Shown one piece after another: positions 5,501-41,894 of a stretch of 52,445 nucleotides of DNA. A model generated the notes under the pieces. It searched no databases and had not been told where the DNA came from. It saw nothing but the letters and a program-made list of their open reading frames with translations. Position 1 is the stretch's first letter, and every line of letters begins with the position of its first letter. The position numbers and the translations under genes were made by a program. Origin of the DNA: Clostridiales bacterium GWD2_32_19 (GTDB lineage: Bacteria > Bacillota > Clostridia > Lachnospirales > UBA12420); contig MGOU01000013.1 in the NCBI GenBank assembly GCA_001795385.1, positions 1 through 52,445 of the forward strand, read 5' to 3'.

Positions 5501-5610
5501 ATATCTGCCTCCATTGGTGCAGTTGAAACTTCAGCATATACTACTTGATATGTGCAAATGGTAAAAAAAAATATAACATATAAACTTATTATAAACCTCA
5601 TTTTTTTCAT
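2563..5610 (-). CDS. Large secreted protein built of ten tandem ~90-residue beta-type repeats
   Basis: A 1015-residue protein with a signal peptide (IISLYVIFFFTICTYQVVYA). The rest is ten tandem units of about 85-95 residues. The typical unit reads ITVTNNYAGTDDTVVVTGL, then GDxVKVYS, GTATVG, TSATVTI, QLGTGxGxxYVSVTS, NKLESKRT and a Thr/Pro-rich linker. The pattern alternates beta strands with Gly/Asp turns, like an Ig-like or fibronectin-like surface fold, though I recognise no named family. The first two units are degenerate, and unit 1 has an acidic insert (IIEEGVEIDEG, IPIEEEFD). There is no LPxTG, SLH or choline-binding domain and no C-terminal helix, so the attachment mode is unknown. 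AGGAGG lies 6 bases before the ATG. A hairpin element sits 24 bases upstream of the start. Confidence 0.88.
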   Translation of the reverse strand: MKKMRFIISLYVIFFFTICTYQVVYAEVSTAPMEADIVSYAGIGYEPDKIIVSNLSPYSIIKVYTTQTGGSPIAVAADIDKSRMFLEIDDLRIIESGESIIEEGVEIDEGLIPIEEEFDSSVTIYLNQLGKLGTKLYVSITSMGKTESLRTLVSAKAETVALPPAISTIFVENYPTEWPDIVAIKKPVDASIAVGDIIKVYSSATSTTPIGIAEMEELGAVVIVNQLGVTAGKIYVTATYKDNKSYESSRTEVSFFGEPTTTTPFAESIIVTNNINGINDTVEVNGLYRGDVVSVFTVSKGGIAVGTATVEDDATSAIINIPQLGVLAGKIYVSVKSRRELESARMEKPYIAELVSTSPLVADITVTNNYSGTSDTIEVTGLGEGDIVKLYTASKAETAVGTATVEAGQTSVNMSLLQLGTVKGTLYISITSPNKLESTRTAKPYTSEPISTEPVSGSITVTNNISGTNDTVEVTGLDETDVVKVYSVLSGGGVIGTATVGAGETSVNIAITQLGTGAKSVFVSVTSTGKMESKRTSKAYDSEISVSLAATAITVTNNYTGIDDTVTVTGLAEGDIVKVYNVAFGGVAIGTATVGTGLTSATVTIAQIGTGTGSIYVSVTKLNKIESKRATKAYIIEPTSTAPMATAITVTNNYAGTDDTVVVTGLVPGDTVKVYSSLTGVVPTGTTIVGLGATSATVIIPQIGTGIGSLYVSVTSQNKLESKHISKAYITEPTSTIPLVTAIAVTNNYAGTDDTVVVTGIVEGDIIKMYSVITGGAAVATATVGVGATSATLTTPQLGTGTGTIYVSLTNVNKLESKRIAKSYATEPTTTAPSEITVMNNVAAINDTVLVTGLEQGDIVKVYNVSKGGMAIGTATVGVEETSATVTIAQIGVGVGSVYVSATSPNKLESKRTIRTYTSETSISPIASNIIAINNRTGVNDAVIVAGLAEGDVVKVYSTLTGETQIGTSTVGVGETSANVTIVQLGTTSGTVYISVTSLNKFESKRTPKIFNTAS
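2566..5520 (-). repeat. Ten in-frame ~270-bp repeats of the secreted protein
   Basis: The units can be followed by their ITVTNN-like start: two degenerate N-terminal units (one with DIVSYAG, one with STIFVEN), then eight clear ones beginning IIVTNN, ITVTNN (four times), IAVTNN, ITVMNN and IIAINN. Units 6 to 8 are the most alike (YTGIDD, YAGTDD, YAGTDD), which fits recent internal duplication or gene conversion. The array ends almost at the stop codon. Confidence 0.85.
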
Positions 5611-5633
5611 AATTATCCTCCTATGTGAATCTA

Positions 5634-5710
5634 GGTAGTGTAAAATATTTATAGTACTAAATACTACACTATCCCTTTATATTCAATATATTTTATCTGT
5701 ATTATCTTCC
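5634..5710 (-). repeat. GGTAGTG hairpin element, copy A (upstream of the repeat protein)
   Basis: Plus-strand GGTAGTGTA at 5634-5642 is the inverted match of TACACTATCC about 20 bases on. The inner loop is also palindromic (TTTATAGTACTAAATA). A further AT-rich tail runs to TATCTTCCC near 5710. From about 5643 on, the element matches copy C at 31514-31582 with one visible mismatch. Its proximal end lies exactly 23 bases before the ATG at 5610. Read towards that gene it contains TTGAAT-N17-TATTTA, which could act as a weak promoter. Confidence 0.75.
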
Positions 5711-5711
5711 C

Positions 5712-5849
5712 CCTTGTCATTGCGAGCGTCTTTTACGAAGCAATCTCATCTTTCAAAAACGAGATTGCTTCGTCGAAAGAACCTCCTCGCAATGACAAGA
5801 ACGCGGCAAGCCGACGGGGAATTAAACCCAAAGAGATTAAAATTATCAT
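5712..5849. repeat. GCAATGAC/GAAGCAATCTC palindromic repeat (family R1), copy 1
   Basis: Contains GTCATTGCGAGCG, GAAGCAATCTC, a short loop, GAGATTGCTTCG and CTCGCAATGAC, i.e. nested inverted repeats, then CGGCAAGCCGACGGGG and a tail ending AAAGAGATTAAA. About 88 bases from 5754 are identical to copy 2 (from 34801). The left flank GAATCTCCCC of the other copies is missing; here the element is joined to hairpin element A. No coding capacity is credible. The rest of the 5611-5946 gap holds no gene. Confidence 0.85.
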
Positions 5850-5946
5850 TATTATTACTATCGACAATCTTATGGATTAGTTTAACATTTTTCTTTAAAT
5901 AACACAATTTATAATAGAATGAACTTTATAAAACCCATGATAAATT

Positions 5947-6597
5947 TTACTCATATATTAATACCCTTGTCCCCATATTAGTATAATCCCATAGTATTTT
6001 TATATCATCATCTGATAAAGCTATACACCCCCATGTCCAGTCTGTGTCTGCTCCACCTCCATGTATACCTATGGCTCCACCTAATTTGGTATTCCAACTA
6101 GGTGCTTTTTTATCATCAATTGATTTACCTATTTCTTCATACTCACTTTTAGTTATCATATTAGCATCATACCCATTCTCAGCATCTACTTTATTAGGAT
6201 AGCTTAATCCTAAAAATAATGTGTATTTACTTTTATCATTTCGTGTACAGATATAGTACTCACCTTGTGGAGTTTTCTTGTCTCCTTCTTTTTTCTTGTG
6301 TCCAAGTGGGTGTGTACCTAATGCAATTTTAAACACTCCTAATACTTTATCACCCTCATAAAACTTCAGTAATCTATCACTTTTGTATATCTCTATGCTA
6401 GCATCTTTAAGCGTTGCTTCTGGTTTATTAAAAAAATATTTTTCATCTTTTATTTCTGTTTTTTCCTTATGTACCTTTTGATTATTAACATTTTCAATAC
6501 TAACAGTTATATCTTTTCCCTTTTCCAATTTACTGCACCCCATCAAAATCATAGTTATTAAAACTATAAAAACCATTCTAAATTTAAATACATTCAA
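5947..6597 (-). CDS. L,D-transpeptidase (YkuD) lipoprotein
   Basis: A 216-residue protein with a lipoprotein signal (hydrophobic core followed by LMGC), so it is probably anchored outside the membrane. The C-terminal half has the YkuD catalytic signature: PLGHKKKEGDKKTPQGEYYIC, then IGIHGG with His179 and TWGCIALSD with the nucleophile Cys191. Enzymes of this fold form 3-3 cross-links in peptidoglycan or attach proteins to it. The ~70 residues between lipobox and catalytic domain are Lys/Glu-rich with no other domain. GGTGAT precedes the ATG. It follows the flavodoxin gene in the same direction with a gap of about 50 bases. Confidence 0.9.
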   Translation of the reverse strand: MNVFKFRMVFIVLITMILMGCSKLEKGKDITVSIENVNNQKVHKEKTEIKDEKYFFNKPEATLKDASIEIYKSDRLLKFYEGDKVLGVFKIALGTHPLGHKKKEGDKKTPQGEYYICTRNDKSKYTLFLGLSYPNKVDAENGYDANMITKSEYEEIGKSIDDKKAPSWNTKLGGAIGIHGGGADTDWTWGCIALSDDDIKILWDYTNMGTRVLIYE

Positions 6598-6647
6598 CTA
6601 TATCACCATTCCTATATTATATGTATTATTATAATTTCTCAATGCTT

Positions 6648-7169
6648 TCATTCATTACACATCTTTACTATAGGATCTATGTATTTTTTATTTGTCCAGT
6701 CTACAGATTTCACATAGACAGCAAGCATACCTTTTTCATCAGGTGTTGGGTTCTTTTTACTTTTTAGCATCAATCTTAAAATAGACATAAGCAATTTATC
6801 CACAAAACTTAGTCTTTTGTAATCAAATCCCCCTCTTAGCAAAAAGAAGTTTATTTTTTCCTGCTGTTGTTCGGTGAAATTAAGACTTTTAATCTCGCTT
6901 TCAGTATTTTCCTTTATAGGTGATAAACAAGTTGCAAATACAATGAGTTTCTTATCTTTAATCTTTTCATAATTACGTGTCAACAGTTTTACTCCACTAA
7001 TTCCACTAACATATATACCTCCACCATAAACTATGAGGTCATATGATAACAAATGTTCTTCATTTGTTTTATCTTCCTCATAGATATCTGCCCCTATTTC
7101 TTCTGCTATCCACTCGGCATATTTTTTTGTAAACCCTGTTTTTGACTTATAAATTACTACCTTTTTCAT
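6648..7169 (-). CDS. Flavodoxin-domain protein
   Basis: A protein of about 173 residues beginning KKVVIYKSKTGFTKKYAEWIAEE, the FMN phosphate-binding loop of flavodoxins (TGFTKK), followed by YDLIVYGGGIYVSGISG, the second FMN-contact loop. It resembles the flavodoxin family related to HemG-type oxidoreductases and is likely a cytoplasmic FMN redox protein; the partner is unknown. The ATG at 7169 is used. A GTG two codons earlier (7175) is better spaced from GGAG (7 rather than 13 bases) and may be the true start. It lies downstream of the CopZ-like gene. Confidence 0.8.
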   Translation of the reverse strand: MKKVVIYKSKTGFTKKYAEWIAEEIGADIYEEDKTNEEHLLSYDLIVYGGGIYVSGISGVKLLTRNYEKIKDKKLIVFATCLSPIKENTESEIKSLNFTEQQQEKINFFLLRGGFDYKRLSFVDKLLMSILRLMLKSKKNPTPDEKGMLAVYVKSVDWTNKKYIDPIVKMCNE

Positions 7170-7256
7170 AAACACTTCACATCTCCTTTGAGTCTTTAAC
7201 AATATAAGAAAAGTTTGTTTGTATCTTTCTGACAACAAACAAACCCTTCAGCATTC

Positions 7257-7487
7257 CTATTCTTTGTAAGTTCCTTTTTCTTCTATCACATCGTATCCTT
7301 GCTGTAAAATAGCACCTTTTATATCATCATTGGTTACTTTTGTAGAATCATACTCGACTACAACTGTTTTATTAGCAGCACTGGCGCTTACCTCATTTAC
7401 TCCATTTAACCCAGATATTGCCTTAATCACACTATTTTCGCAATGATTACAAGACATACCCTCAACATTTATAACAACCTTATCCAT
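7257..7487 (-). CDS. copZ: CopZ-like heavy-metal-associated (HMA) domain protein
   Basis: A 76-residue single HMA domain. Residues 8-15 read VEGMSCNHC, the GMxCxxC metal site, followed by the typical SVIKAISGLNGVNEVSASAANKTVVVEYD ferredoxin-like pattern split over the whole chain. Proteins of this kind carry Cu(I) to a copper P1B-ATPase. The neighbouring P-type ATPase lacks copper-pump signatures (no CPC, no HMA domain), so the copper partner must be elsewhere. AGGAGG lies 6-7 bases before the ATG. Confidence 0.85.
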   Translation of the reverse strand: MDKVVINVEGMSCNHCENSVIKAISGLNGVNEVSASAANKTVVVEYDSTKVTNDDIKGAILQQGYDVIEEKGTYKE

Positions 7488-7571
7488 TCTTTGACCTCCT
7501 ATTTAATTAATATTTTTTTTTATAATTTTCCCACAATCATGACATTCCAAACACATATATCTAATATTTTT

Positions 7572-10226
7572 TTAATTCTTAACTTTATTTTTGTCTATAC
7601 TTCTTACCACAATCTTTACTATCTCAACTATAGGTATTATTGCAAATGAAGCTAATAATACTATTGACCATTGTTCAAAGTTTAGTGGCACAACTTTAAA
7701 TATTTTTGCTATTGGTGGAACAACAACAACTATAATTTGTAAAAATGCAGTTATGAGTATAGCCCATATCAAATACATATTACTAAATAGGCCTATTTCA
7801 AATATTGATTTTTTATTCGATCTTACATTAATTGAATGCGTAAGCTGTATTAAACCTAAAGTTATAAATGTCATTGTCATTGCAACTTCATGACTATATA
7901 ATTTATCCCCTATATAATATACTGATAATGTAATTAGTCCTTTTGATATACCTTGATATATTATGTTAAATCCTACACCATTTGACCAAAAACTACTATC
8001 TGCCTTTCTTGGCTTTTGTTTCATTACATCTTTTTCTGATTTTTCCACTCCAAGTGCTAAGGCAGGTAGACTATCTGTAACTAAGTTTATCCATAATATG
8101 TGAATAGGAAACAATACTACCCAGTTTAGCATTGTAGCTAAAAACAAAGTCACTACCTCTCCTAAATTAGATGATAGTAAAAATTGAATAGTTTTTGTTA
8201 TATTACTATATATTTTTCTACCTTCTTTTACTGCATAAACGATTGTTGCAAAGTTATCGTCTGCAAGTACCATGTTTGATACACTTTTCGAAACATCAGT
8301 ACCTGTTATACCCATCCCTACACCTATATCTGCAGTCTTAAGAGCTGGTGCATCATTTACACCATCACCTGTCATTGCTACTATCCTGCCATTTTTTTGC
8401 CATGTTTCCACAATTCTAACTTTATGTTCTGGTGAAACCCTTGCATAAACAGAATATTTCGTAACAAGCTTCAAGAAGTCCTTATCTGAAATTTTATCAA
8501 GCTCTGTCCCTGTTATTGCTTCACTTTCGTCTGTTATTATACCTAATTCCTTAGCTATTGCAACTGCTGTATCTTTATGGTCACCTGTTATCATAATCGC
8601 TCTTATGCCTGCAGATTTACACTCCCGAATAGCTTCTTTTGCCTCTTCGCGGGGTGGATCTATCATACCAACTAATCCCACAAAAACCAAGTCATTCTCG
8701 ACTTTCATAGAAGTCATATCTTCTGGCATAATTTCTATCTTGTTATAAGCAAATGCCAAAACCCTGAGTGCCTTACTTGCCATCATCTTATTTGATGAAT
8801 TTATTTCTTTTAAAATATCTTCCGATAAATTTTCAATCTCGCCATTTACTAGAATCTTTGTACATCTTTGTAGTAACACATCTGGCGCACCTTTAGTCAT
8901 TATTTTAAAACTTGCATCATCACCATGAATTGTAGTCATTAGTTTTCTATCTGAATCAAAAGGTATCTCATCAACTCTTTTTGAAATATTATCTAATTCA
9001 TTCTTATTAAAACCCTTTTCATGTGCAAAGCTTATAAGTGCAGTTTCAGTAGGATCTCCTAATAGTTTAATAGTATTTTCTTCAGAATTTACAACCTTTG
9101 AATCATTACATAATGTCATTACATGTATAAATTCTCTCACATGTTCATGATTACCTTCTATGTCTTTTGCCTCAAGCATTTGACGATTTATATAAACCTC
9201 TTTTACTGTCATTTTGTTTTGTGTAAGTGTACCAGTTTTATCAGAACATATTATTTCTGTACTTCCTAGTGTCTCAACAGCTGCTAACTTTCTTATAATT
9301 GCATTTTTCTTTGCCATTTTTTGTACGCCAATTGCAAGCACTATAGTAATAACAGCAGGAAGTCCTTCTGGAATAGCTGCAACTGCTAAGCTCACAGATG
9401 TTAAAAACATTTCAAATGTATCTCTACCATTCAATATTCCTACAACAAATATCAAAGCAGCTATTATAAGTACTGCTATTGATAACATCTTTCCCATTTT
9501 GTCTAAATTCATCTGTAGTGGTGTCTGATTATCCTCTGTATCTGAAATTTTCTTCGCTATCTTACCAACCTCAGTATTCATACCTGTTCCTGTAACTACT
9601 CCTAGCCCTCTACCATATGTTACAATACTACCTGAATATGCCATGTTTATTCTATCTCCAATAACAACATCGGCATTTTCTAATTTACTTACACTTTTTT
9701 CAACTGGTACAGACTCACCTGTGAGAGCCGATTCATCTATCTTTAAATTGGCTATTTCGATTATTCTCATGTCAGCAGGTATAAAATCACCTGCCTCTAC
9801 TAAAACTAGATCTCCAAAAACTAGATTTTCTGTATCAATTTTCTCCACTTCACCATTTCTTTTTACTTTAACTTGTGGAGATGACATCTTCTTTAATGCT
9901 TCTAATGCTTTTTCAGCTTTATTTTCTTGAATAACTCCAAGTACTGCATTTATTATAACAACTACAAGTATTATACCCATATCTGTTAATTCACCTAAAG
10001 CACCTGAAATTACTCCCGCAACTATAAGTACTATAACCATAAAATCCTTAAACTGATCTAAATATTTTCCAAGTAAAGTTTTTCTTTTTCCCTCATCAAG
10101 TTGATTCTTTCCATACTCAACGATCCTACTTTCAGCTTCCATTTGAGTTAATCCATTGGAATTAGAACCTGTTTCTACATAAATATCTTCTACACTCATT
10201 ATGTGGTATGTATTATTTTCCTTCAT
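7572..10226 (-). CDS. Calcium-transporting P-type ATPase (SERCA/PMR1 type, P2A)
   Basis: 884 residues, full length for bacterial P2A ATPases. TGES at about 169-172 is the actuator loop, DKTGT holds the phosphorylated Asp329, and TGDGVNDAP is the hinge. The ion-site residues match SERCA: PEGLP at 286-290 in M4 (Glu), SSNLGEVV in M5 (Asn and Glu), and WINLVTDSLP in M6 (Asn, Thr, Asp). Together these favour Ca2+ export, possibly with Mn2+. The N-terminus is a cation-ATPase N domain and not a metal-binding HMA domain. About ten membrane helices are expected. AGGAGG precedes the ATG. Bacillus YloB is the nearest named relative I can think of. Confidence 0.93.
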   Translation of the reverse strand: MKENNTYHIMSVEDIYVETGSNSNGLTQMEAESRIVEYGKNQLDEGKRKTLLGKYLDQFKDFMVIVLIVAGVISGALGELTDMGIILVVVIINAVLGVIQENKAEKALEALKKMSSPQVKVKRNGEVEKIDTENLVFGDLVLVEAGDFIPADMRIIEIANLKIDESALTGESVPVEKSVSKLENADVVIGDRINMAYSGSIVTYGRGLGVVTGTGMNTEVGKIAKKISDTEDNQTPLQMNLDKMGKMLSIAVLIIAALIFVVGILNGRDTFEMFLTSVSLAVAAIPEGLPAVITIVLAIGVQKMAKKNAIIRKLAAVETLGSTEIICSDKTGTLTQNKMTVKEVYINRQMLEAKDIEGNHEHVREFIHVMTLCNDSKVVNSEENTIKLLGDPTETALISFAHEKGFNKNELDNISKRVDEIPFDSDRKLMTTIHGDDASFKIMTKGAPDVLLQRCTKILVNGEIENLSEDILKEINSSNKMMASKALRVLAFAYNKIEIMPEDMTSMKVENDLVFVGLVGMIDPPREEAKEAIRECKSAGIRAIMITGDHKDTAVAIAKELGIITDESEAITGTELDKISDKDFLKLVTKYSVYARVSPEHKVRIVETWQKNGRIVAMTGDGVNDAPALKTADIGVGMGITGTDVSKSVSNMVLADDNFATIVYAVKEGRKIYSNITKTIQFLLSSNLGEVVTLFLATMLNWVVLFPIHILWINLVTDSLPALALGVEKSEKDVMKQKPRKADSSFWSNGVGFNIIYQGISKGLITLSVYYIGDKLYSHEVAMTMTFITLGLIQLTHSINVRSNKKSIFEIGLFSNMYLIWAILITAFLQIIVVVVPPIAKIFKVVPLNFEQWSIVLLASFAIIPIVEIVKIVVRSIDKNKVKN

Positions 10227-10267
10227 AATTATCCTCCTTTTAGATTCAACCTCATTATATAAAAATT

Positions 10268-11143
10268 CTATATTATATCAATATCTCCTAATATAACATT
10301 TGATACATTTTCTTTCTTATTTTCCATACTAAATTCCATTACTCCATATCCAACTCCAAATGGCCCTTCATACGACAAAAGTTTAGCATTTATATCGTTT
10401 CCATTAATTGCACCTAGTATTATGTAGCATAACTTCAAACCATATTCAGAAACATTTTGAACAATAGAGCTATCTAAATTGAAGATTTCCACTTCATTTC
10501 CTTCTTCTAAAAGACTAATAAGGTTTCTATCAAACTTTTCCCCATCTTCATGATAATTATATTTCCCTTCATCACCTAAACAATGTGAAAAATCCCCACT
10601 ACCAATCAAAACTGCATCGCTTGGTGAATTATTTATTGCTTTTCTTATAATCATACCAAGCTTATATAAATCAAGTTTTGATAAAAGCCCATATGTTATG
10701 TTTACAACTTTATAATCTTTGTATTTTTTATTTATAAAATACAAAGGAACCATACTTCCATAATCAAGCCCAGCAGTTACCCCGTATACTTTAGCAGAAT
10801 TCTTATTTATTTTTATCGTTGATATCTTATTCTGTATTGCATAGTTTGTGATATTCTCAGTTAAAACTTTATCAATCTTACATTCTATTCCTATCTTTTC
10901 ATTACCAAATTCATCAAAATTTCCATATAGTACATCATCTGATGATATAGCTATAGTATCACCTGAAAGAGATCCATGCGGTGTCACTATTATTACGGTA
11001 CCTGGCGCTTTCTCTGCTATACTTGACGCAACTTCATAACAAGCATTAAAAGTATTTTTTACATTTTTTATTTGTCTTTCTCCTATTTCAGGCAATAAAA
11101 TAGGTGCTTGCGGCATTAAATAACAACCCTTAAATTCTCCCAT
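10268..11143 (-). CDS. Stand-alone LigB/MEMO-like protein (class III extradiol dioxygenase fold)
   Basis: About 291 residues. YLMPQAPILLPEIG at the N-terminus is the HPPxxxPEVG-like opening of the AmmeMemoRadiSam B/LigB family, here with Gln for the usual first His. VTPHGS, LDYGSMVPLYF, GSGDFSHCLGDEGKYNYHEDGEKFD and GVGYGVMEF follow, carrying the usual His/Asp/Glu candidates for metal binding. In most Clostridia this domain is fused or linked to AMMECR1 and a radical SAM gene; neither is present here. The biochemical role is unproven. An internal ATG at MPQAP is an alternative start. Confidence 0.75.
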   Translation of the reverse strand: MGEFKGCYLMPQAPILLPEIGERQIKNVKNTFNACYEVASSIAEKAPGTVIIVTPHGSLSGDTIAISSDDVLYGNFDEFGNEKIGIECKIDKVLTENITNYAIQNKISTIKINKNSAKVYGVTAGLDYGSMVPLYFINKKYKDYKVVNITYGLLSKLDLYKLGMIIRKAINNSPSDAVLIGSGDFSHCLGDEGKYNYHEDGEKFDRNLISLLEEGNEVEIFNLDSSIVQNVSEYGLKLCYIILGAINGNDINAKLLSYEGPFGVGYGVMEFSMENKKENVSNVILGDIDII

Positions 11144-11312
11144 AAACACACATCCATTCTAAATAATATTAAGTAAAGATACCCCTACTTTCTCACTAAA
11201 TTATACCATATCATTAAAAAACATACAAGAAAAATTATATTTTAATGCATAATAACTTTAATATTTCAAAAAATATAATAATAATGATTATCAATAAAAA
11301 TTGGAGGCGCTT

Positions 11313-11711: not shown

Positions 11712-11726
11712 TTGCTCATTTTTGTT
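11691..11726. terminator. Perfect bidirectional terminator overlapping two stop codons
   Basis: Arms 11691-11705 and 11712-11726 form a perfect 15-bp stem (AACAAAAATGAGCAA and its complement) with the 6-base loop GATTAA. The A-rich foot gives a T-run in both directions. It contains the stop codons of the plus-strand small gene and of rsmI. Confidence 0.9.
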
Positions 11727-12562: not shown

Positions 12563-12595
12563 GATTAAACTCCTATTCTGTTTTTATTTTTAAAA

Positions 12596-12624: not shown

Positions 12625-12635
12625 CCTCTGTTATA

Positions 12636-13262
12636 TCACACAAGTACTTTCTTACAATGATGCTTCAAAAAGCATTCTTCACATTTCGGCTTCGGACCCT
12701 TACATGATGTTCTACCAACCGCCATAATTTGGCTATTGTACCTTGCCCAGTTTTCTTTTGGTAATACTCTCATTAGTTCAAACTCTATTTTAGTTGGGTC
12801 TTTCTCTTTTGTGAGTCCCAACCTATAACTTACTCTTTTGACATGTGTGTCTACAACTATGCTAGGTTGTTTAAATATATGTGTTAGTATAACATTTGCC
12901 GTCTTTCTGCCCACACCAGCAAGCTTTGTCAGTGTTTCTATATCAGTAGGCATTATCTTAGAATAATCTTTAATCAGTTGCCCACATGATTTTTTTATAT
13001 TTTGTGCTTTATTTCTATAAAATCCAGTTTGAAATACATCTTGTTCAAGTTCCGCAAGATTACAATCTGCAAAATCTTCTATTTTGTTGTACTTTACAAA
13101 AAGTTTTTGAGTCACCTTATTTACTCTATCATCTGTACATTGTGCTGCAAGTATTGTTGCCACCATGAGCTCATAGTCTTTAGTATAATCAAGATAGCAA
13201 ATAGCTTCTTTACCATATTGATTATCGAGAAGCTTTAATATTTGATTTATTGTTTTTTCCAT
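12636..13262 (-). CDS. nth: Endonuclease III (DNA glycosylase / AP lyase)
   Basis: 208 residues, standard length. LAGVGRKTANVIL is the helix-hairpin-helix with the catalytic Lys, VDTHVKRVSYRLGL holds the catalytic Asp, and the C-terminus carries the 4Fe-4S pattern C-x6-C-x2-C-x5-C. The enzyme removes oxidised pyrimidines and nicks the abasic site in base-excision repair. GGAGG is 7 bases before the ATG. Upstream, an extended -10 (TGTTATAAT) abuts a hairpin element whose near end is 23 bases from the ATG, so the element probably lies in the 5' leader. Confidence 0.96.
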   Translation of the reverse strand: MEKTINQILKLLDNQYGKEAICYLDYTKDYELMVATILAAQCTDDRVNKVTQKLFVKYNKIEDFADCNLAELEQDVFQTGFYRNKAQNIKKSCGQLIKDYSKIMPTDIETLTKLAGVGRKTANVILTHIFKQPSIVVDTHVKRVSYRLGLTKEKDPTKIEFELMRVLPKENWARYNSQIMAVGRTSCKGPKPKCEECFLKHHCKKVLV

Positions 13263-13285
13263 AAAGTCACCTCCAAATAATATCC

Positions 13286-13333
13286 GGTAGTGTAATTAAA
13301 AGTACAAACTTTTAATGCTTAATTCATTCTACC
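13286..13333 (-). repeat. GGTAGTG hairpin element, copy B (nth leader)
   Basis: Plus-strand GGTAGTG at 13286 pairs with CTACC at 13329-13333. Inside is a perfect 9-bp hairpin, ATTAAAAGT (13295-13303) and ACTTTTAAT (13308-13316), with loop ACAA. It shares the GGTAGTGTA end and the 23-base distance to the start codon with copies A, C and D but has its own interior. Confidence 0.65.
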
Positions 13334-30655: not shown

Positions 30656-31480
30656 TCATATTTCTCCCTCAAATACAGTTACTGCAGGTCCACTCATAAA
30701 TACATGATTATTATCCATCCACTCAAGATTTAGAGTTCCTCCTAATAGTTTTACTTTTATTTCTCTATTTGTCTTATTGTTTAACACACTCGCGACGATG
30801 CTCGCACAAGCAGCTGTTCCACAGGCTAAGGTTTCCCCTACTCCTCTTTCCCAAACTCTAACATTTATCTTATTAACTGAACTAACTTCCAGAAATTCAA
30901 CATTTGTTCTATTCGGAAATAGTTTATGATTTTCTATCATTCTACCTATTTTCTCTACATCTATTTTATCGGCATTTTCCACGAAAATTATAGCATGTGG
31001 ATTGCCCATAGATACTGCTGTTATTTTGTAAGTATTACCATCTATAATAAATTCCTCATCAACAACCATGTCTTTGTTGAAAATAATAGGAATACTTTCC
31101 GATTTAAGTATTGGCTCACCCATATCAACTCTCACATTTGACACTATATCATTTTCTACAATAAGTTCAAGCTTTTTTATACCGCCTAGAGTTTCTATAT
31201 CAACCTCTTTTTTATTAGTCATTTTATTATCAAAAATATATTTCCCTACGCATCTTATACCATTACCACACATTTCAGCTTCTGACCCATCCGCATTAAA
31301 TATTCTCATCCGAAAATCAGCTATATTTGATTCACATATTAAAATCAAACCATCTGCGCCTATCCCAAAATGCCTATCACACAGCTTTATAGCAAGCTGA
31401 CTCGGTTTATCTATTTTTTCATTTATATTATTTATAATAATAAAATCATTACCCAAACCCTGCATTTTAGTAAATTTCAT
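30656..31480 (-). CDS. dapF: Diaminopimelate epimerase
   Basis: 274 residues, standard length. MQGLGNDFIIINN opens the fold; ADGSEAEMCGNGIRCVGKY carries the first catalytic Cys and ETLACGTAACASI the second. It converts LL- to meso-diaminopimelate for lysine and peptidoglycan. GGAGGG lies 6 bases before the ATG, and a hairpin element has its near end 23 bases before it. It precedes the rod-binding gene by 24 bases and may be co-transcribed with it. Confidence 0.97.
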   Translation of the reverse strand: MKFTKMQGLGNDFIIINNINEKIDKPSQLAIKLCDRHFGIGADGLILICESNIADFRMRIFNADGSEAEMCGNGIRCVGKYIFDNKMTNKKEVDIETLGGIKKLELIVENDIVSNVRVDMGEPILKSESIPIIFNKDMVVDEEFIIDGNTYKITAVSMGNPHAIIFVENADKIDVEKIGRMIENHKLFPNRTNVEFLEVSSVNKINVRVWERGVGETLACGTAACASIVASVLNNKTNREIKVKLLGGTLNLEWMDNNHVFMSGPAVTVFEGEI

Positions 31481-31503: not shown

Positions 31504-31636
31504 GGTAGTGTCAAATATTTATAGTACTAAATACTACACTATCCCTTTATATTCAATATATTTTATCAGTATTATCTTCCCTCTCGCAATGACAAATTTG
31601 AGGTTTTCATTTTTTCTTAAAACTTTTGACACTATC
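31504..31636 (-). repeat. GGTAGTG hairpin element, copy C (dapF leader), with terminal inverted repeats
   Basis: Ends are GGTAGTGTCAAA (31504-31515) and TTTGACACTATC (31625-31636), a 12-bp terminal inverted repeat with one mismatch. The first ~78 bases match copy A almost exactly. The next bases, CTCGCAATGACAA (31583-31595), are a fragment of the right arm of repeat family R1. Flanking octamers TACAGTAG and TACATAGT are similar but not identical target-site copies. The pattern suggests a miniature transposable element of about 133 bp. The near end is 23 bases from the dapF ATG. Confidence 0.75.
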
Positions 31637-34722: not shown

Positions 34723-34888
34723 TAATGAATCTCCCCGTGGCAAGCCGACGGGGTATCATGTTGTCATTGCGAGCGTTTTTTGCGAAGCAATCTCATCGTT
34801 CAAAAACGAGATTGCTTCGTCGAAAGAACCTCCTCGCAATGACAAGAACGCGGCAAGCCGACGGGGAATTAAACCCAAAGAGATTAAA
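34723..34888. repeat. Palindromic repeat family R1, copy 2 (full length)
   Basis: Starts AATGAATCTCCCC, has GGCAAGCCGACGGGG, GTCATTGCGAGCG, GCGAAGCAATCTC, loop, GAGATTGCTTCG, CTCGCAATGAC, a second CGGCAAGCCGACGGGG, and ends CAAAGAGATTAAA. The ends form a worn terminal inverted repeat (GAATCTC with GAGATT). It sits between the YerB-like gene and the stop of the dgkA–PAP2 gene. Confidence 0.85.
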
Positions 34889-34903
34889 CACTGCCACCCT
34901 TTC

Positions 34904-36054: not shown

Positions 36055-36165
36055 ATCGATTCACACTCCCTAAATAACAGTTAATAATATATTTGTTTTA
36101 TTATAGCAAAAAAACAAGACATCTGCAAGTACAAATACCTTATTTTTCATTTTATTAAATTATAA

Positions 36166-37416
36166 TTATGGTGTAACATGTATTTCAGGGTTTTCAGGGT
36201 TTTCAGGGTTTTCAGGGTTTTCAGGGTTTTCTGTATTTTCAATCATTTTATTTTGACCTATTTTTCTAATTAGTATTGCAATTCCATTTGCTATTATTCT
36301 CTTTTCCTTAAAGCCATAATCAAATCTAACATCAATTATTCTAGTATCATCTGATATTTTCTCAGATATGTTTTCATATATCCTTTTCTTCAACCTTTTT
36401 TTAGCCTCATCTATCGTATATGTTACTTTATCAAATTTATATTCCTCATATTCAGTTAATATAAATCCAAATTTATTTTCTTTAATAAATGGGTCTAGAG
36501 ATATGTATTTTTCCTTTTTATCAAAAAAACTATCTTTTGGCCTTGTTTTTATAAAATCGAACTTTCCAAAATGCAAATTTAATTGCAATTCCCTATACAC
36601 CTCTCCTGTATATGTCTTTTTAGAAAATTCAAGTTCCTGTTCTTCTTTTATAAATAAATAATCTTTCCCTTCTATCTTTGCATTTGCATGTACATATTTC
36701 TTTAGTATTTCCCCATCTTTTTCTACATCTATTTCTCCACTAACTAATACATCGCCTTCGTTTACAACATCCTTTGCCTTTACCTTCGGTACACCACTTA
36801 ATGTTACTATATCATATATCACAGCTTTCTTGTCTGCTACTATATTGCACGGAGTATTCTCAAGTGATCCTGAGGTTTTGACAACTGTCTCAACAACATC
36901 AATATTCACACTGGTCCCTTTCTGATATATATTTAGCCATGCGATATCCTCGACTTCTTTATAAAGCGAGTTGGCTACATTATCATAATTTATCATGAAT
37001 TTAGGCTTACCCTTACTCAGTCCTGCAGTTTTTACCACTGCCAAAATTTTTCGAGCATCTATTCTTTCAGTGCCGTACACATTAATATCAAGCACTATGC
37101 TTGACAAAATGGTCAATACTATAAGTGTTAAAAATATTCCGATAACAAAAAATTTCCTACCTTTATACTTATGTAGTAAAAAAGGTAGCCCATATTTTTT
37201 TATCACTTTGACCTTAGTATATGTACCTCTTAAAATGCTTTGTATTCTCCAAAAATCCGTAAGAGAAATGTTCATTTCTATGTAGTTACTTTTTAATACT
37301 ATCTTCCATAATAAGATAGAGTTGTTTGCAAATCTATTAATAATTTTTTCTTTTTGAAACCCGAATATTCTTATTCTAACATACCCTCTAAAGAACTTTG
37401 GCATATTTCCAAACAT
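36166..37416 (-). CDS. yqfD: Sporulation protein YqfD, with a C-terminal Glu-Asn-Pro repeat
   Basis: 416 residues. One membrane helix near residue 85-110 (FFVIGIFLTLIVLTILSSIVLDI), then a POTRA-like region with YGTERIDARKILAVVKTAGL, YEVEDIAWLNIYQKGTSVNI and an all-beta C-terminal part. YqfD is made under mother-cell control in Bacillus and needed for spore formation; the exact role is not settled. The last 20 residues are five ENP units followed by EIHVTP, encoded by a 9-bp tandem repeat. It follows yqfC by 12 bases. Confidence 0.93.
   Translation of the reverse strand: MFGNMPKFFRGYVRIRIFGFQKEKIINRFANNSILLWKIVLKSNYIEMNISLTDFWRIQSILRGTYTKVKVIKKYGLPFLLHKYKGRKFFVIGIFLTLIVLTILSSIVLDINVYGTERIDARKILAVVKTAGLSKGKPKFMINYDNVANSLYKEVEDIAWLNIYQKGTSVNIDVVETVVKTSGSLENTPCNIVADKKAVIYDIVTLSGVPKVKAKDVVNEGDVLVSGEIDVEKDGEILKKYVHANAKIEGKDYLFIKEEQELEFSKKTYTGEVYRELQLNLHFGKFDFIKTRPKDSFFDKKEKYISLDPFIKENKFGFILTEYEEYKFDKVTYTIDEAKKRLKKRIYENISEKISDDTRIIDVRFDYGFKEKRIIANGIAILIRKIGQNKMIENTENPENPENPENPENPEIHVTP
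36184..36232 (-). repeat. 9-bp in-frame tandem repeat at the yqfD 3' end
   Basis: Five copies of plus-strand TTCAGGGTT encode ENP units. Copy-number changes keep the frame and change only the tail length. Confidence 0.92.
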
Positions 37417-37428
37417 ATATGTACACCT

Positions 37429-37695
37429 CTAACTTCCATATTGTATATTTTTTATGACTCCCGTAATGAATATTTCATCTTTTCTTATGTACTTAATATT
37501 CATGTTTTTACCACTTATATTTACCTGACCTATTTTAGTATTTATCCTTATTGATTCAGGCTTGTAATCTATTACCGCCTTATAATTTTCTATAACAATC
37601 TCTTCATTTCCAACAATGGTAGCAAGAGGAATGTTAAGAAAGGTCTCTTTTGGTATATCAACAACACCATATATTTTTTTCTTAAAACTTTCCAT
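37429..37695 (-). CDS. yqfC: Sporulation protein YqfC
   Basis: 88 residues from the ATG after GGAGGG (6-base gap). The YabP/YqfC family pattern is clear: KKIYGVVDIPKETFLNIPLATIVGNEEIVIENYKAVIDY, then TKIGQVNISGKNMNIKYI and FITG. Made in the mother cell of spore formers. It is followed by yqfD as in other genomes. Confidence 0.93.
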   Translation of the reverse strand: MESFKKKIYGVVDIPKETFLNIPLATIVGNEEIVIENYKAVIDYKPESIRINTKIGQVNISGKNMNIKYIRKDEIFITGVIKNIQYGS

Positions 37696-37772
37696 GTTTA
37701 TCCCTCCGAGCACATATCAGTAAAAGATTTTTCTACTTACTATATTAAGTTTATTCCAGTAAAGCAAAAAAA

Positions 37773-37793
37773 TGCAAGTAAACCGCACTTGCA
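37773..37793 (-). terminator. Terminator downstream of sigG
   Basis: TGCAAGT (37773-37779) and ACTTGCA (37787-37793), 7 bp, with the complement of 37765-37771 giving a T-run on the minus strand. Isolates sigG from yqfC. Confidence 0.82.
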
Positions 37794-37824
37794 CTTTATA
37801 AATTGTTTTTCTGCTAACATATAT

Positions 37825-38598
37825 TCAACTTATATTCCTTTTTATCTTATCCAAAGCATTTTTCTCAAGCCTTGATACTTGAGCCTGTGATATTCCTATT
37901 TCATCTGCGACTTCCATCTGAGTTTTACCCTTGAAAAATCTTAGAGTTATTATGTTCTTCTCTCTTCCTTTTAATTTTTTAATACTTTCCCTTAATGCAA
38001 GAGAGTCTATCCAATTCTCGGCTAGATTTTTTTCGTCTTTCACTTGATCTACGACATATATGGCATCACCACCATCATTATATATAGGTTCATACAACGA
38101 AACTGTATCTTGTATAGACTCTAAAGCAAACACGACTTCTTCCTTTGCAACACCTATCTCCTTTGCTATATATTCTATGGTCGGCTCTTCCATATTTTTA
38201 TTTATAAACTCCTCCTTTATCTTATATGTTTTATAAGCAATATCCTTCAGTGACCTGCTTACTCTTATCGAACTATTATCCCTTAGATATCTCTTAATCT
38301 CCCCTATTATCATAGGTACTGCATAAGTAGAGAACTTAACATCTTGGGATAAGTCAAAGTTATCAATAGCCTTTATAAGACCGATACAACCAACTTGAAA
38401 TAAATCATCAAGATTTTCGCCCCTGTTATTGAATCTTTTAACAACACTTAGAACCAATTTCAAATTTCCTTTTATATATTTTTCCCTTGCAAAAATATTA
38501 CCCTCTTTTGCTCTAACTAATAAATCATATTTTTCATTTTTCTTTAATACTTCTAATTCAGAGGTGTTAATGCCACAAATTTCTACCTTTCTTATCAT
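37825..38598 (-). CDS. sigG: Forespore sigma factor SigG
   Basis: 257 residues from the ATG at 38598 (GGTGG upstream). Regions 1.2-2.4: LDDLFQVGCIGLIKAIDNFDL, KFSTYAVPMIIGEIKRYLRDN; region 4.2: KTQMEVADEIGISQAQVSRLEKNAL. The N-terminus matches SigG (RKVEICGINTSELEVL) and not SigF. It drives late forespore genes such as the SASP found at 47.9 kb. An in-frame N-terminal extension inside the palindrome upstream is not expected to be translated. It follows sigE as in Bacillus. Confidence 0.96.
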   Translation of the reverse strand: MIRKVEICGINTSELEVLKKNEKYDLLVRAKEGNIFAREKYIKGNLKLVLSVVKRFNNRGENLDDLFQVGCIGLIKAIDNFDLSQDVKFSTYAVPMIIGEIKRYLRDNSSIRVSRSLKDIAYKTYKIKEEFINKNMEEPTIEYIAKEIGVAKEEVVFALESIQDTVSLYEPIYNDGGDAIYVVDQVKDEKNLAENWIDSLALRESIKKLKGREKNIITLRFFKGKTQMEVADEIGISQAQVSRLEKNALDKIKRNIS

Positions 38599-38610
38599 CC
38601 TATCACCACC

Positions 38611-38749
38611 CGGCATGAAATACAAAGTACAGAGTTCAAAGTTCAAAATACAAAGTAAAAAATTATTTAGTAAACCATCTTATTTGTTAATTTTATTTGT
38701 TATTTGTACTTTGTTCTTTGAACTTTGTACTTTGTTTTAATTATTGCCG
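38611..38749. repeat. Palindromic repeat between sigE and sigG
   Basis: CGGCA at 38611 pairs with TGCCG at 38745-38749. Inside, ACAAAGTACAGAGTTCAAAG (38622-38641) is matched by the complement of the CTTTGAACTTTGTACTTTG segment near 38717-38735 with one mismatch. It contains no promoter or terminator signature that I can defend. Confidence 0.75.
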
Positions 38750-38761
38750 AGTGACTTATAT

Positions 38762-39496
38762 TTAATACAACTTTGCCATTTCTTTCTTAAGCTTTTTTAT
38801 TATCTTTTTCTCAAGTCTTGATATGTATGATTGAGATATTCCTAGTTCATCAGCTACCTCCTTTTGTGTTAATTCATCTCCTTCATTATAAATCCCATAG
38901 CGGAGTTCAATTATTTTCTTTTCCCTTATATTAAGCCTTTCAACACACTTTTTTAAAATCTTTGAGTCGATTTCTTCCTCTATTTTTTTAGATACATTTG
39001 ACTCCTCACTACCAATAACATCAGCAAGTAGAAGCTCATTTCCATCCCAATCTACATTAAGTGGTTCATCGATTGAAACCTCAAACTTCGTTTTATTATT
39101 TTTTCTTACAAACATAAGAATTTCATTTTCTATACATTTAGATGCATATGTCGCAAGCTTTATGTTTTTACTAGCCTCAAACGTATTTATCGCCTTAATG
39201 AGCCCTATGTTTCCTATCGATACTAGATCCTCTAGCCCTATTCCCACATTTTCAAACTTCTTTGCAAGGTACACAACAAGCCTCAAATTTCTCTCTATAA
39301 GTTCACGTTTTACTTTATTCCTATCCACAGTATTCAGTTTATTTATCAATATTTTTTCCTCTTCCGGTTTTAAAGGCTCTGGAAGCACCTCATTATTATT
39401 TATATAATGTAGCCCTTCGCTTAAATCAGAATTAAACTTTCTTATAATATTAATCCAAAAAGATTTTACCTTTAGCATAAATTGTTTTAAATTCAT
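38762..39496 (-). CDS. sigE: Mother-cell sigma factor SigE (with pro-sequence)
   Basis: 244 residues with an N-terminal amphipathic pro-sequence (NLKQFMLKVKSFWINIIRKF) and a likely cleavage region near EGLHYINNNEVLPEPL; SpoIIGA removes the leader in Bacillus. Region 2: LEDLVSIGNIGLIKAINTF, IKLATYASKCIENEILM; region 4: ELTQKEVADELGISQSYISRLEKKI. It lies downstream of spoIIGA, the usual spoIIG pairing. Confidence 0.96.
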   Translation of the reverse strand: MNLKQFMLKVKSFWINIIRKFNSDLSEGLHYINNNEVLPEPLKPEEEKILINKLNTVDRNKVKRELIERNLRLVVYLAKKFENVGIGLEDLVSIGNIGLIKAINTFEASKNIKLATYASKCIENEILMFVRKNNKTKFEVSIDEPLNVDWDGNELLLADVIGSEESNVSKKIEEEIDSKILKKCVERLNIREKKIIELRYGIYNEGDELTQKEVADELGISQSYISRLEKKIIKKLKKEMAKLY

Positions 39497-39551
39497 ACAT
39501 ATCCTCCTTTTATCATACCATTATCAAATTATTGGTTATGTTTTTTATTTT

Positions 39552-39580
39552 CCCCTCTCCCTTTGTTGTAGGGAGAGGGG
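39552..39580. repeat. GC-rich hairpin between spoIIGA and sigE (family R3)
   Basis: CCCCTCTCCCT, loop TTGTTGT, AGGGAGAGGGG: a perfect 11-bp stem. Similar to the motif at 49115-49155 (CCCTTTGTTACAGGG in reverse). It has no T-run, so it is a repeat more than a terminator. It lies in a 135-base gap with sigE downstream. Confidence 0.7.
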
Positions 39581-39631
39581 AACCAATTTCTAGTATTCGC
39601 GTATCTCTCGTATTAGCTGTCCCCCTTATCA

Positions 39632-40477
39632 TCACCCTAAAATCCTAGGATGTATTAGCATGTTGTACTCATCGTTATTTGTGAATTTTCCTTTGTATAT
39701 TGCAATTATTTGATTTTCTAAAACCAAATCTCCTAATTTATTATTAAAAATTATTACCTTATCAAACATTACTCCTATAAGCTTTCCGTTAGCCTCTCCA
39801 ACACTCTTATATGGTATATTATAAGTGTCTTCCCTATCAGCAAAATCTTCATGTAGAATCTCTTTTAATTTATCATACTCAGATACCAAAACAGGCTTAA
39901 AACTTTTGGGGTCATACAGACTGTTTCCAGTATCTATAATCCCTTTGAGAGTGACAATATTTTTGTTTTTTAAAATCTGAACTATGTAAATTTTACTTTT
40001 TGCAAAATACTGATTTAAAATCACACTCGAAGCTTTAATTAACAAATAGCTAAATATTACTGAAAAAACAAGGAGTCTTATCGTAATTTTATTTGTTGCG
40101 ACATAAATAAAATTTTGTATATATGAATTAGTATTTATGTAATACATTGTTGCAAATGTTACTCCTCCAACGAATGTCGAAACAATATAAACCGATATTA
40201 TTATCTTGAATGATTCCACAATACTTTTAGGTCTAAAACCCACAATTATAGGGACTATAAATATTAATCCAGTTAGAATAATTTTATTAAAAGTGTTAAA
40301 TTCAAAATATACGATAGCTACACAATAAGTTATCGATGCAATGATTGATGCTACAAGCATTCGAATACATGTGGTATTTAATCTTAATAACTTTTTTGTT
40401 GCAAAAAATATTATGAAATTCATAACAAAATTTACAGCAAAGATTACATCTATATATAAATTTACTTCCAGCAGCAT
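39632..40477 (-). CDS. spoIIGA: Pro-SigE processing peptidase SpoIIGA
   Basis: About 281 residues. Five membrane helices in the first 150 residues, then a soluble aspartic-protease-like part with GIIDTGNSLYDP (catalytic Asp in DTGN) and VLVSEYD. SpoIIGA cleaves pro-SigE at the septum in response to the forespore signal SpoIIR. ATG at 40477 lies only 3 bases from AAGGAG; a TTG one codon earlier or CTG codons just after are other options. TATAAT (40513-40518, minus) is a candidate -10. Confidence 0.93.
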   Translation of the reverse strand: MLLEVNLYIDVIFAVNFVMNFIIFFATKKLLRLNTTCIRMLVASIIASITYCVAIVYFEFNTFNKIILTGLIFIVPIIVGFRPKSIVESFKIIISVYIVSTFVGGVTFATMYYINTNSYIQNFIYVATNKITIRLLVFSVIFSYLLIKASSVILNQYFAKSKIYIVQILKNKNIVTLKGIIDTGNSLYDPKSFKPVLVSEYDKLKEILHEDFADREDTYNIPYKSVGEANGKLIGVMFDKVIIFNNKLGDLVLENQIIAIYKGKFTNNDEYNMLIHPRILG

Positions 40478-40533
40478 CAACTCCTTAAATACACAGTTCA
40501 GCTTATATCTGAATTATATCTCTTGTATATGTA

Positions 40534-40586
40534 AAAAAATGTAAAAAGAGTGAACTCAAATTAAGTTCACTCTTTTTACATTTTTT
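40534..40586 (-). terminator. Perfect 23-bp terminator downstream of the permease gene
   Basis: Arms 40534-40556 and 40564-40586 are perfectly complementary (core GAGTGAACT / AGTTCACTC) with a 7-base loop and A/T-rich feet. It can end transcription both ways and separates the permease gene from spoIIGA. Confidence 0.92.
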
Positions 40587-40632
40587 ATTTATCATTCCCA
40601 TGTTGTATTTTATTATATTTAACAAAACACTA

Positions 40633-41850
40633 TTATGCTTTATTCTCTATCTTTCTCTTCTTCGCTGCAACTATTTTTAGTATCACAAGTCTTAACACTC
40701 CTGCAGTTGGTACTGCGAGTATCATCCCTACAAGTCCGAATTGCGCTCCAGTAATTACTGCTAGCAGTATAAATACTGGGTGTAGTCCAACACTCTGTCC
40801 TACTATTCTTGGTGCCATTATGTTTCCATCTAATTGTTGTATTATTCCTAATACTATAAGTGCATATAATGCAGTTATAGGTTCTGTACTAAGTAGTCCT
40901 ATAATAACAGCTGGTATAACTCCTATAATAGGTCCAAAGTATGGTATGATGTTTGATAGTCCTACAAAAAGTCCTACAAAAAATGCATAATCAAGTCCAA
41001 CTAGACTTAAAGCTATTATACTTACACCTGCTATTATAGAACAATCGAGGAGCTGTCCACGTATAAATTTTGAAACTACTCCATCTACTTCACTCAAAAA
41101 TTTATTGATTCTATCACAATGCTTTTTAGGCAATATGAGCCTCTGTCCTTCTTTATAAATCTTCTCAAAGAACTCTAGGTCAACCATTATATAAAATGCA
41201 ATGACTAATGCAAGTAAGAAGCTTAGTAAATTATCCATTATTCCAGTAAATAAGTTTATTATAAAATCAAAAATCACCTGACCTATATTTCCAATTCCCT
41301 GTACAAATTCTGTCACCTTATCTTTCAAATCACTAGATAATAGATGACTTGCATCAAGTCTGGCTTTTAGATTTGATTCTAAAAATATTCTAGTTTCATC
41401 CATATAATTCTTAGTTCCGCTAATTAGTGAATCTAGATTTGTAGTTTCTAGTTTCCCTTTTATCATTACAAATCCCATAATAATTACAGCAGTAATTATA
41501 GATAAAATTAATATATAAGTCACGAAAACACTTATAAGCGTTTTAAACTTTTCATTTTTCTTAATATTTTCTACTTTTTGTGTTTTTTTGTGAGGCCTTT
41601 TTATAATTTCTTTAAACAACATTTTTTTAATCCAAACAGATACCGGATACAATAAATACGCAATTATAAGAGCAATCCAAAGTGGTTTTAATATTCCTAA
41701 TACATATAAAATTGTATTTAATATTACCATCAAAAAATCAGGAATTACATTTACTATACTACTCAATATGTATATTATCGTAAATGATAAAACAACATAA
41801 ATACTTACCTTTATTGCTATCCTATCAATATTATCAAAATGATATTTCAT
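40633..41850 (-). CDS. AI-2E family transporter (PerM-like membrane protein)
   Basis: 405 residues with about eight membrane helices. VVSKFIRGQLLDCSIIAGVSIIALSLVGLDYAFFVGLFVGLSNIIPYFGPIIG and GNIMAPRIVGQSVGLHPVFILLAVI in the C-terminal half are the family signature. Members are proposed exporters; some act in osmotic or Na+ stress. The substrate is unknown here. GGGGAGG precedes the ATG and a minimal hairpin element ends 23 bases before the ATG. Confidence 0.93.
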   Translation of the reverse strand: MKYHFDNIDRIAIKVSIYVVLSFTIIYILSSIVNVIPDFLMVILNTILYVLGILKPLWIALIIAYLLYPVSVWIKKMLFKEIIKRPHKKTQKVENIKKNEKFKTLISVFVTYILILSIITAVIIMGFVMIKGKLETTNLDSLISGTKNYMDETRIFLESNLKARLDASHLLSSDLKDKVTEFVQGIGNIGQVIFDFIINLFTGIMDNLLSFLLALVIAFYIMVDLEFFEKIYKEGQRLILPKKHCDRINKFLSEVDGVVSKFIRGQLLDCSIIAGVSIIALSLVGLDYAFFVGLFVGLSNIIPYFGPIIGVIPAVIIGLLSTEPITALYALIVLGIIQQLDGNIMAPRIVGQSVGLHPVFILLAVITGAQFGLVGMILAVPTAGVLRLVILKIVAAKKRKIENKA

Positions 41851-41873
41851 ACTTTAATCCTCCCCTTATATTA

Positions 41874-41894
41874 GGTAGTGTAAAATACACTATC
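41874..41894 (-). repeat. GGTAGTG hairpin element, copy D (minimal, between mutL and the permease)
   Basis: GGTAGTGTA (41874-41882), AAA, TACACTATC (41886-41894): both ends of the element with no interior. It directly abuts the mutL stop codon. 23 bases separate it from the permease ATG. It looks like a collapsed or minimal form of copies A and C. Confidence 0.75.

Follow-up and report, generated by a model that had tools for sequence, protein, structure and literature searches.

Tn7 at attTn7, and Ty3 and the Dictyostelium TRE elements at tRNA genes, insert at safe places that are defined by a landmark. To our knowledge, transposons that keep a fixed distance from their landmark are few, and the closest bacterial case that we know of measures its distance from promoters. 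Here we analyze short hairpin elements on a contig of Clostridiales bacterium GWD2_32_19 (MGOU01000013.1, positions 1–52,445; this whole stretch of 52,445 nucleotides is referred to as the window), which appear to be copies of a miniature inverted-repeat transposable element (MITE) inserted at a measured distance before start codons. The landmark is one gene for Tn7 and Pol III units for Ty3 and TRE, whereas here it is the translation start of many unrelated genes. The literature searched, which took in few subscription papers and preprints and no ISfinder notes, yielded no transposon described as targeting translation starts.

In behavior, the closest described elements are TnGBS, ISLre2, and ISKra4. 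According to the sections of Guerillot et al. (2014, PMC3942029) that treat them, TnGBS and related insertion sequences (ISs) insert in one orientation, 15–17 bases before the −35 boxes of sigmaA promoters, and TnGBS, ISLre2, and ISKra4 represent p-MULT 3 and 4, which have a Mutator-type transposase. The elements described here are likewise oriented and placed at a fixed distance, but the landmark is a −35 box there and a Shine-Dalgarno (SD) sequence plus start codon here, and the Mutator-type transposase there contrasts with an IS6/IS240-like DDE transposase here.

In protein architecture, the putative parent element comes closest to the long zinc-finger members of the IS6 family in Clostridia, which form clades VII/VIII (ISCpe7, ISTet2, ISHahy6, and ISHco2) of Harmer and Hall (2019, PMC6807381) and clades h/i of Varani et al. 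(2021, PMC7986276). As described in the consulted sections of these two papers, clade VIII members measure 453–454 amino acids (aa) and 1713–1761 bp, an extra N-terminal extension is found in clade VIII/i, and two MITEs are noted in IS6. The same sections of Harmer and Hall state that no experimental data were found for the longer bacterial ISs (PMC6807381), and the term "start codon" occurs in neither PMC6807381 nor PMC7986276. By their published descriptions, these clades share with the parent ISs identified here an occurrence in Clostridia, an 8-bp target-site duplication (TSD), and a DDE domain with a CxxC zinc finger, and clade VIII/i also shares a further N-terminal extension; the parent ISs are larger (~483–502 aa, 1755–2034 bp).

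The sequence comparisons presented below make it likely that most of the hairpins derive, as copies or remnants, from a non-autonomous transposon, the MITE of a clostridial-type IS, whose transposase would target start codons. The MITE is inserted in one orientation and at a measured distance before the gene, where the transposase complex would read a motif in the DNA. The initial annotation of the window had pointed to four plus-strand GGTAGTG motifs (5634, 13286, 31504, and 41874), each 23 nt from the ATG of a minus-strand gene, and all four distances were confirmed. GGTAGTG occurs 10 times in the window versus 2.66 expected, and none of 100 shuffles reached 10. The annotation had staked its claim on a genome-wide distance plot, and this plot, drawn for the whole assembly of the same organism (1,974,274 bases in 47 contigs, hereafter the own genome), has a clear peak. 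The pattern ACACTACC-N{15,32}-ATG gave 60 matches, versus 5 and 4 for the reversed pattern, with a spacer of exactly 23 nt in 36 of the 60. ACACTACC alone occurs 80 times, versus 37 in the reversed control.

A right-end core pattern that is blind to the downstream sequence retrieved 53 copies from the own genome (control, 0), and each of the 53 is placed shortly before a start, or a site that resembles one, with the same end towards the gene. Fifty of them precede an open reading frame (ORF) of at least 50 codons, with spacers of 21 (one copy), 22 (four), 23 (36), 24 (seven), 25 (one), and 26 nt (one); where several starts were possible, the one nearest to 23 nt was chosen. The other three (L027, L047, and L079) face short or broken frames. 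Ten of the 53, with mutated ends that had not been seen beforehand, served as a blind test and gave spacers of 23, 23, 23, 21, 24, 24, 23, 23, 23, and 23 nt; two of these, L113 and L114, have another in-frame ATG upstream, at distances of 2 and 5 nt. At L079, the SD is in place with no ATG, GTG, or TTG at 22–24 nt; the broken gene seems to lie downstream, and its start codon has perhaps been lost.

These placements bear on the idea that transposition was random and that selection kept only insertions at this distance. Such filtering would suit the many targets that look core (PGK, PFK, tRNA synthetases), where other insertions would be costly. However, positions further upstream and between convergent genes should then be tolerated as well, and 0 of the 53 copies lie elsewhere; moreover, selection predicts a one-sided distribution rather than a nearly single-base one, and would leave the orientation free. 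We consider this explanation very improbable.

Comparison of the copies defined inverted ends of the form GATAGTGTCAAAA.../...TTTKACACTACC, with TTTKACACTACC being the right end, which faces the gene. The right end, extended to ...AAATATTTKACACTACC, and the left end GATAGTGTCAAAAGTTTT, present in part of the copies, are inverted versions of each other; at up to two mismatches, the left end occurs 27 times in the own genome. An 8-bp TSD with at most one mismatch was detected at 16 of 63 sites, whereas shuffled flanks yielded 0.64 such sites on average and never more than 3 (200 shuffles). L028 and L073 were left out of this 63-site set and of the 59-site start set used below; L001, L027, L047, and L079, with no ORF of at least 50 codons at the expected place, are counted within the 63 and outside the 59. 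The varied copy lengths (21–133 bp and more) would result from internal deletions between the ends. Three copies of 21, 26, and 28 bp (L021, L030, and L044) with perfect TSDs consist of barely more than the two terminal repeats. At five further loci (L118, L119, L122, L123, and L124; L121 is less clear), a left end occurs without the usual right end, still, as judged by eye, shortly upstream of an SD-like stretch and a start codon; deletions have probably removed the right terminus at these loci. L119 retains flanks that differ at only one of their 8 bases, and its GGAGG occupies the index expected.

Orthologous loci in relatives, a comparison recommended by the initial annotation, also speak for insertion. 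Of 25 leaders of orthologues, representing 14 genes in two congeneric genomes, none has the core or the right end within 200 nt, which indicates that the elements are insertions and not conserved leaders; orthologues of pyrH, rimO, and mnmE, although identified, lie outside this count, and no orthologue was found for L025. The same result weighs on the proposal that the hairpins form a regulon of structured operators, which would be recognised in the mRNA at a set distance from the ribosome. In favor of it, the placement relative to the start is constant, and the predicted RNA folds of two of the four window sites contain the expected stem and are better than those of most shuffles (z −2.0 and −2.2). 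The expected stem was not predicted at nth, however, and the site at 41874 folded no better than shuffles; in addition, TSDs are present, no Rfam family was detected at the sites, the target functions are mixed, and the inverted repeat is accounted for by the transposon ends. An RNA operator is very improbable, slightly more so than random insertion followed by selection. A promoter-leader cassette, also suggested at the outset, is not supported: copies of 21–28 bp leave no room for a promoter, and a promoter scan of one leader, that of dapF, stayed at the level of shuffled sequence. The outward TTGACA of the right end would form no usual promoter at this kind of target, because its −10 place coincides with the SD.

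The MITE shares its left end GATAGTGTCAAA...TATGAAAAA, its right end TTKACACTACC, and its TSD length of 8 bp with a larger IS, and MITE copies of 21–133 bp are too short to encode a transposase. When the right end was searched together with its target, as TTKACACTACC-N11-GGRGG-N7-ATG and with one genome per species, at least 113 stretches were found, versus ~7 by a rough chance estimate; the 80 titles listed for this pattern are mostly from Clostridia. At 91 of 114 sites, the locus ends less than 250 bases into the element side, presumably because assemblies break inside multi-copy ISs. Where the contig continues, a transposase ORF of ~483–502 aa points away from the target gene in several loci. 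In five elements of 1870–2034 bp, the left end G(A/G)TAGTGT is present and the two 8-bp TSD copies are identical: L179, L216 (from a record titled Acetivibrio alkalicellulosi and flagged UNVERIFIED_CONTAM), L217 (Mordavella massiliensis), L220 (Hungatella hathewayi), and L234. Four of the five contain a transposase ORF of 485–502 aa, and the longest ORF in L217 measures 373 aa. The left end GATAGTGTCAAATGAYYTATGAAAAA of L179 and L220 resembles that of the MITE. Shorter derivatives occur in other species as well, namely L242 (246 bp) and L266 (110 bp), whose TSD copies are identical, and L243 (264 bp), which has one TSD mismatch.

The parent transposases (483–502 aa, in ISs of 1755–2034 bp) are well above the size of strict IS6/IS26 members (~213–254 aa, ~800 bp), while the 8-bp TSD agrees with what defines the IS6/IS26 family. 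In all three parent proteins scanned, the IS240/IS6 DDE domain PF13610 scored 34.4–48 bits (cut-off 27), and the NCBI IS6 family model NF033587 scored 67.9–82.5 bits, below its cut-off of 125. Pfam assigned IS240, IS66, and rve-type domains to these three proteins and no Mutator domain. Three CxxC pairs (C98/C101, C121/C124, and C144/C147) are invariant in eight sequences, and 97 residues precede the first of them in L220. Judged from these features, the parent type is an IS of 1.75–2.03 kb, mainly of Clostridia, with one predicted zinc-ribbon/DDE transposase of ~490 aa that is distantly IS6-like. The predicted transposase structure, based on the eight-sequence alignment, had a mean predicted local distance difference test score (pLDDT) of 45.8 and a predicted template modeling score (pTM) of 0.29, and was not used. 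A PDB sequence search with the transposase returned nothing meaningful, and no phage record contained it at E ≤ 1e-20. An IS256 origin, guessed from the 8-bp repeats and the G...C ends, was rejected, as PF00872 is missing from the own genome. The ISLre2 domain PF06782 was not detected in three congeneric genomes, in a search whose positive control gave no match anywhere either.

While the IS ends are widespread, the MITE core itself had no match in the genome-contig database (from which the records of the own genome are possibly absent), so the MITE family looks local. In the two congeneric genomes G001 and G002, 26 matches include two with a 23-nt spacer, one of them with the SD in place. This one, L083 (G001:C2:19780), reads ACACTACC-N23-ATG with an SD and no recognisable left end, and is possibly an old remnant. 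Match counts across 56 genomes, of which 53 lie outside the genus, exceeded the reversed control in a few cases (e.g., G039 and G040). Among the loci compared, the sequence that adjoins the left end of L117 at the contig end recurs once, in L005.

We next consider targeting outside the own genome when no target is built into the search. In 15 genomes, the right-end 12-mer YTTGACACTACC plus a trailing non-C, followed 40 bases onward, was matched by an ATG at an offset of exactly 23 at 54 of the 94 sites listed, and among these sites the mean was 1.8 ATG per offset outside 22–25; two of the 15 genomes had no 12-mer match. An ATG at 21–25 together with an SD-like stretch is present at 56 of the 94 (53 at 23, three at 24). 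Many of the remaining sites are probably left ends, which read alike in the outward direction. Ends of the CTTG form, which we take to be left ends, faced such a start in 0 of 8 cases in G057 and 0 of 6 in G059, and ends of the TTTG form in 11 of 12 and 6 of 6, respectively; in G070, the count for the CTTG form was 5 of 9.

Copies can also be selected through the transposase alone. In that search, 21 of 291 genomes of the class were positive, and further copies from three genomes were added. After removal of two duplicates (L327, identical to L318, and L336, identical to L322), a right end was recognised in 27 of 36 distinct loci, and 25 of these 27 face an ATG, at 20 (one copy), 22 (three), 23 (14), or 24 nt (seven). 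Fifteen distinct transposase-selected copies have a TSD with no more than one mismatch. As the identity of the transposases to the query falls to 36–37% (L314 and L315), the rule looks old. Plasmids of Bacilli contain relatives too (11 records, 32–40% identity over most of the protein), and in three of the six examined, the element end and the deposited start codon are 23, 24, and 23 nt apart. One of the meanings initially proposed, an element aimed at translation-start regions, is strongly supported by the TSDs, the empty orthologous sites, the parent IS with the same ends, and the transposase-selected copies.

The target itself reads TSD(8)-N3-GGRGG-N7-ATG, i.e., a Shine-Dalgarno sequence plus a start codon. 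Insertion duplicates the 8 bp and leaves the right end TTTKACACTACC facing the gene, followed by N3, GGRGG, N7, and ATG, with 23 nt (24 in one lineage) between the element end and the start codon. In the own genome, G occupies indices 11, 12, 14, and 15 past the end in 41–44 of 52 sites (counted after exclusion of the chance ACACTACC rows L003, L026, L028, and L078, and with the start distances of L027, L047, and L079 assigned by hand), and the start codon lies at 23 in 44 of 59. At 56 sites in other genomes, the same four indices hold G in 48–53 cases and ATG lies at 23 in 53. A perfect GGRGG at index 11 was found in 35 of 40 targets, versus 35 of 200 background genes. In the own genome (n = 59), the standard deviation is 0.69 for the start position and 0.88 for the SD index, whereas the natural SD–start spacing has a standard deviation of 1.65 (n = 70); the background gene sets for both comparisons have mechanically chosen starts and are noisy, and a 32% non-ATG figure from the GGRGG comparison is too high for this reason and was disregarded. 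A ruler that read the SD only would leave the start as loose as the natural spacing, so the tighter start indicates that SD and start are both fixed. Neither the SD alone nor the ATG alone, each tried as the sole ruler, fits the positions.

In the window, 9 of 10 occurrences of GGRGG-N7-ATG are gene starts, as are 137 of 170 in named loci, so that a protein able to recognise this DNA motif would need no ribosome. We therefore favor a mechanism in which the transposase complex itself would read the bipartite SD plus ATG motif in the DNA, which is the most likely one, with ribosome-guided targeting as its main rival. In the latter, a ribosome or initiation complex on the nascent mRNA would be the ruler, with the transposase brought in where the 30S footprint ends and the 8-bp target just upstream. 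A start position at least as tight as that of the SD is what such a ruler would give, and so are the sites at which the ATG stays at 23 next to a weak or shifted SD and the GTG or TTG starts that are hit too (5 of 59 own-genome targets). On the other hand, the joint fixation of SD and ATG goes beyond what translation needs, and the DNA motif is by itself sufficient to locate gene starts. In addition, copies before a start lie at 24 nt in 4 of 4 cases in G253 and at 23 nt in 5 of 5 in G331 (Fisher p 0.008, a post-hoc comparison of two ISs), which fits a spacer length that belongs to the transposase; the 24-nt spacing of G253 is perhaps a lineage-specific ruler. The four G253 copies (L302, L320, L328, and L330) keep the SD block within indices 10–16. 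Guidance by the ribosome is unlikely on balance, yet it carries clearly more weight than random insertion followed by selection.

Several observations weigh against a MITE placed by a DNA-reading transposase. The ATG that remains at 23 beside some weak or shifted SDs suggests that the start codon may outweigh the SD, and the GTG and TTG targets indicate that ATG is not strictly required. No TSD at one mismatch or fewer was found at 47 of the 63 own-genome sites. The own assembly contains no autonomous copy, and neither was PF00872 found there, so the helper transposase has to be deduced from other species; the only transposase match in the own genome, L298 (G000:C32:11359-11634), has 36% identity over 90 residues and one stop. 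The 15 genomes of the 12-mer test were picked for holding at least one match to TTKACACTACC-N11-GGRGG-N7-ATG, and subtracting 15 matches for this choice leaves GGRGG at index 11 in 20 of 25 targets; the trailing D (non-C) of the 12-mer pattern drops sites with C at that position. Two of the 27 transposase-selected copies, L322 and L329, face no start (L329 abuts another copy), no right end was recognised in nine of the 36 loci, five of which stop short of the N-terminal end of the gene, and L308 and L311 were accepted with two mismatches in the end. Three of the six plasmid records depart from the rule: L340 and L341 have no recognisable end, and in L342 the distance to the deposited TTG is 18 nt. 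Lastly, it is doubtful whether the nth site of the window is an insertion.

The targets are unrelated genes, many of them core. Among ten that were scanned are the families of tRNA synthetase, PGK, PFK, ribulose-phosphate epimerase, and ACP synthase III, as well as DHH/DHHA2, AP endonuclease 2-type, and GTP-binding proteins. In the window, the targets comprise nth, dapF, the gene of an AI-2E family transporter, and an ORF of 1015 aa for which no family exceeded the cut-off; the first three, each of which has a clear Pfam family, are indeed unrelated, as had been noted. Coding sequence, SD, and start codon stay intact on insertion, which suits a safe-harbour strategy, and a landing place that spares all three would be the benefit to the element. 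The inserted copies may have a secondary regulatory effect.

Taken over its whole range, from Clostridia to plasmids of Bacilli, this DDE transposon lineage probably homes on the translation-initiation signal, through either a DNA-reading protein module or the initiating ribosome. It would thereby give almost any gene a new 5' leader with near single-base precision, leaving the gene itself untouched, and would be the first class of transposons whose landmark is the translation start. If the SD and start-codon rule is true, it would account for the spread of an IS in compact genomes with their genes kept whole, while placing a new leader (a hairpin, possibly a promoter or terminator) before core genes, and each copy would be a nearly nucleotide-exact genomic marker of a true start codon. 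The rule also raises the question of whether a transposase can read a translation signal in DNA or uses the ribosome, and it may offer an integration tool aimed at ribosome-binding sites.

Within the window, all four sites and their target genes lie on the minus strand. The smallest copy (41874–41894, recognised by sequence reading and the TSD test) comprises 21 bp, GATAGTGTATTTTACACTACC, with the two terminal repeats almost back to back. It is flanked by the right (41866–41873) and left (41895–41902) copies of the duplication TAATATAA, with 0 mismatches, and the mutL stop codon lies within the left one. On one side is mutL (41895–43706, by Pfam) and on the other the AI-2E family transporter gene (PF01594), whose ATG is at 41848–41850, with GGAGG at indices 10–14 past the element end.

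The copy upstream of dapF (31504–31636, 133 bp) has both ends, the right one TTTGACACTACC at 31504 and the left one GATAGTGTCAAAAGTTTT at 31619–31636, and its flanks show no clear TSD at up to one mismatch. The lengths of 21 and 133 bp are those initially given for these two elements. The dapF gene (30656–31480) starts at the ATG at 31478–31480. The 40-bp right core of this copy, GATAGTGT...ACACTACC (31504–31543), occurs alone with TSDs in L014, L024, and L113. The same core is present at 5634–5673, upstream of the 1015-aa ORF (2563–5610; ATG at 5608–5610). There, sequence common to other copies continues to ~5710, and a search at up to two mismatches found no left end.

At nth (12636–13262; ATG at 13260–13262), ACACTACC at 13286–13293 lies 23 nt before the gene, and neither a left end nor a TSD was found. 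An inverted partner of the GGTAGTG end had been claimed for all four elements; it exists at 5634, 31504, and 41874, but at 13286 the partner GGTAGAAT also occurs in a congeneric genome without ACACTACC and is left unpaired in the predicted RNA fold. This site may be a decayed right end or a chance match.

The dapF copy further contains an internal TTGTCATTGCGAG repeat, which belongs to a second repeat family. Together with its inverted partner, TTGTCATTGCGAG has seven matches in the window versus 0.02 expected, at 5714–5798, 31583–31595, 34761–34845, and 50038–50117. It sits upstream of the right core in many MITE copies, and inside the element where a left end exists. In the Rfam scan of the window, in which nothing at the hairpins exceeded the gathering score, the only match was a T-box leader at 49699–49936 on the plus strand (RF00230, 97.9 bits).

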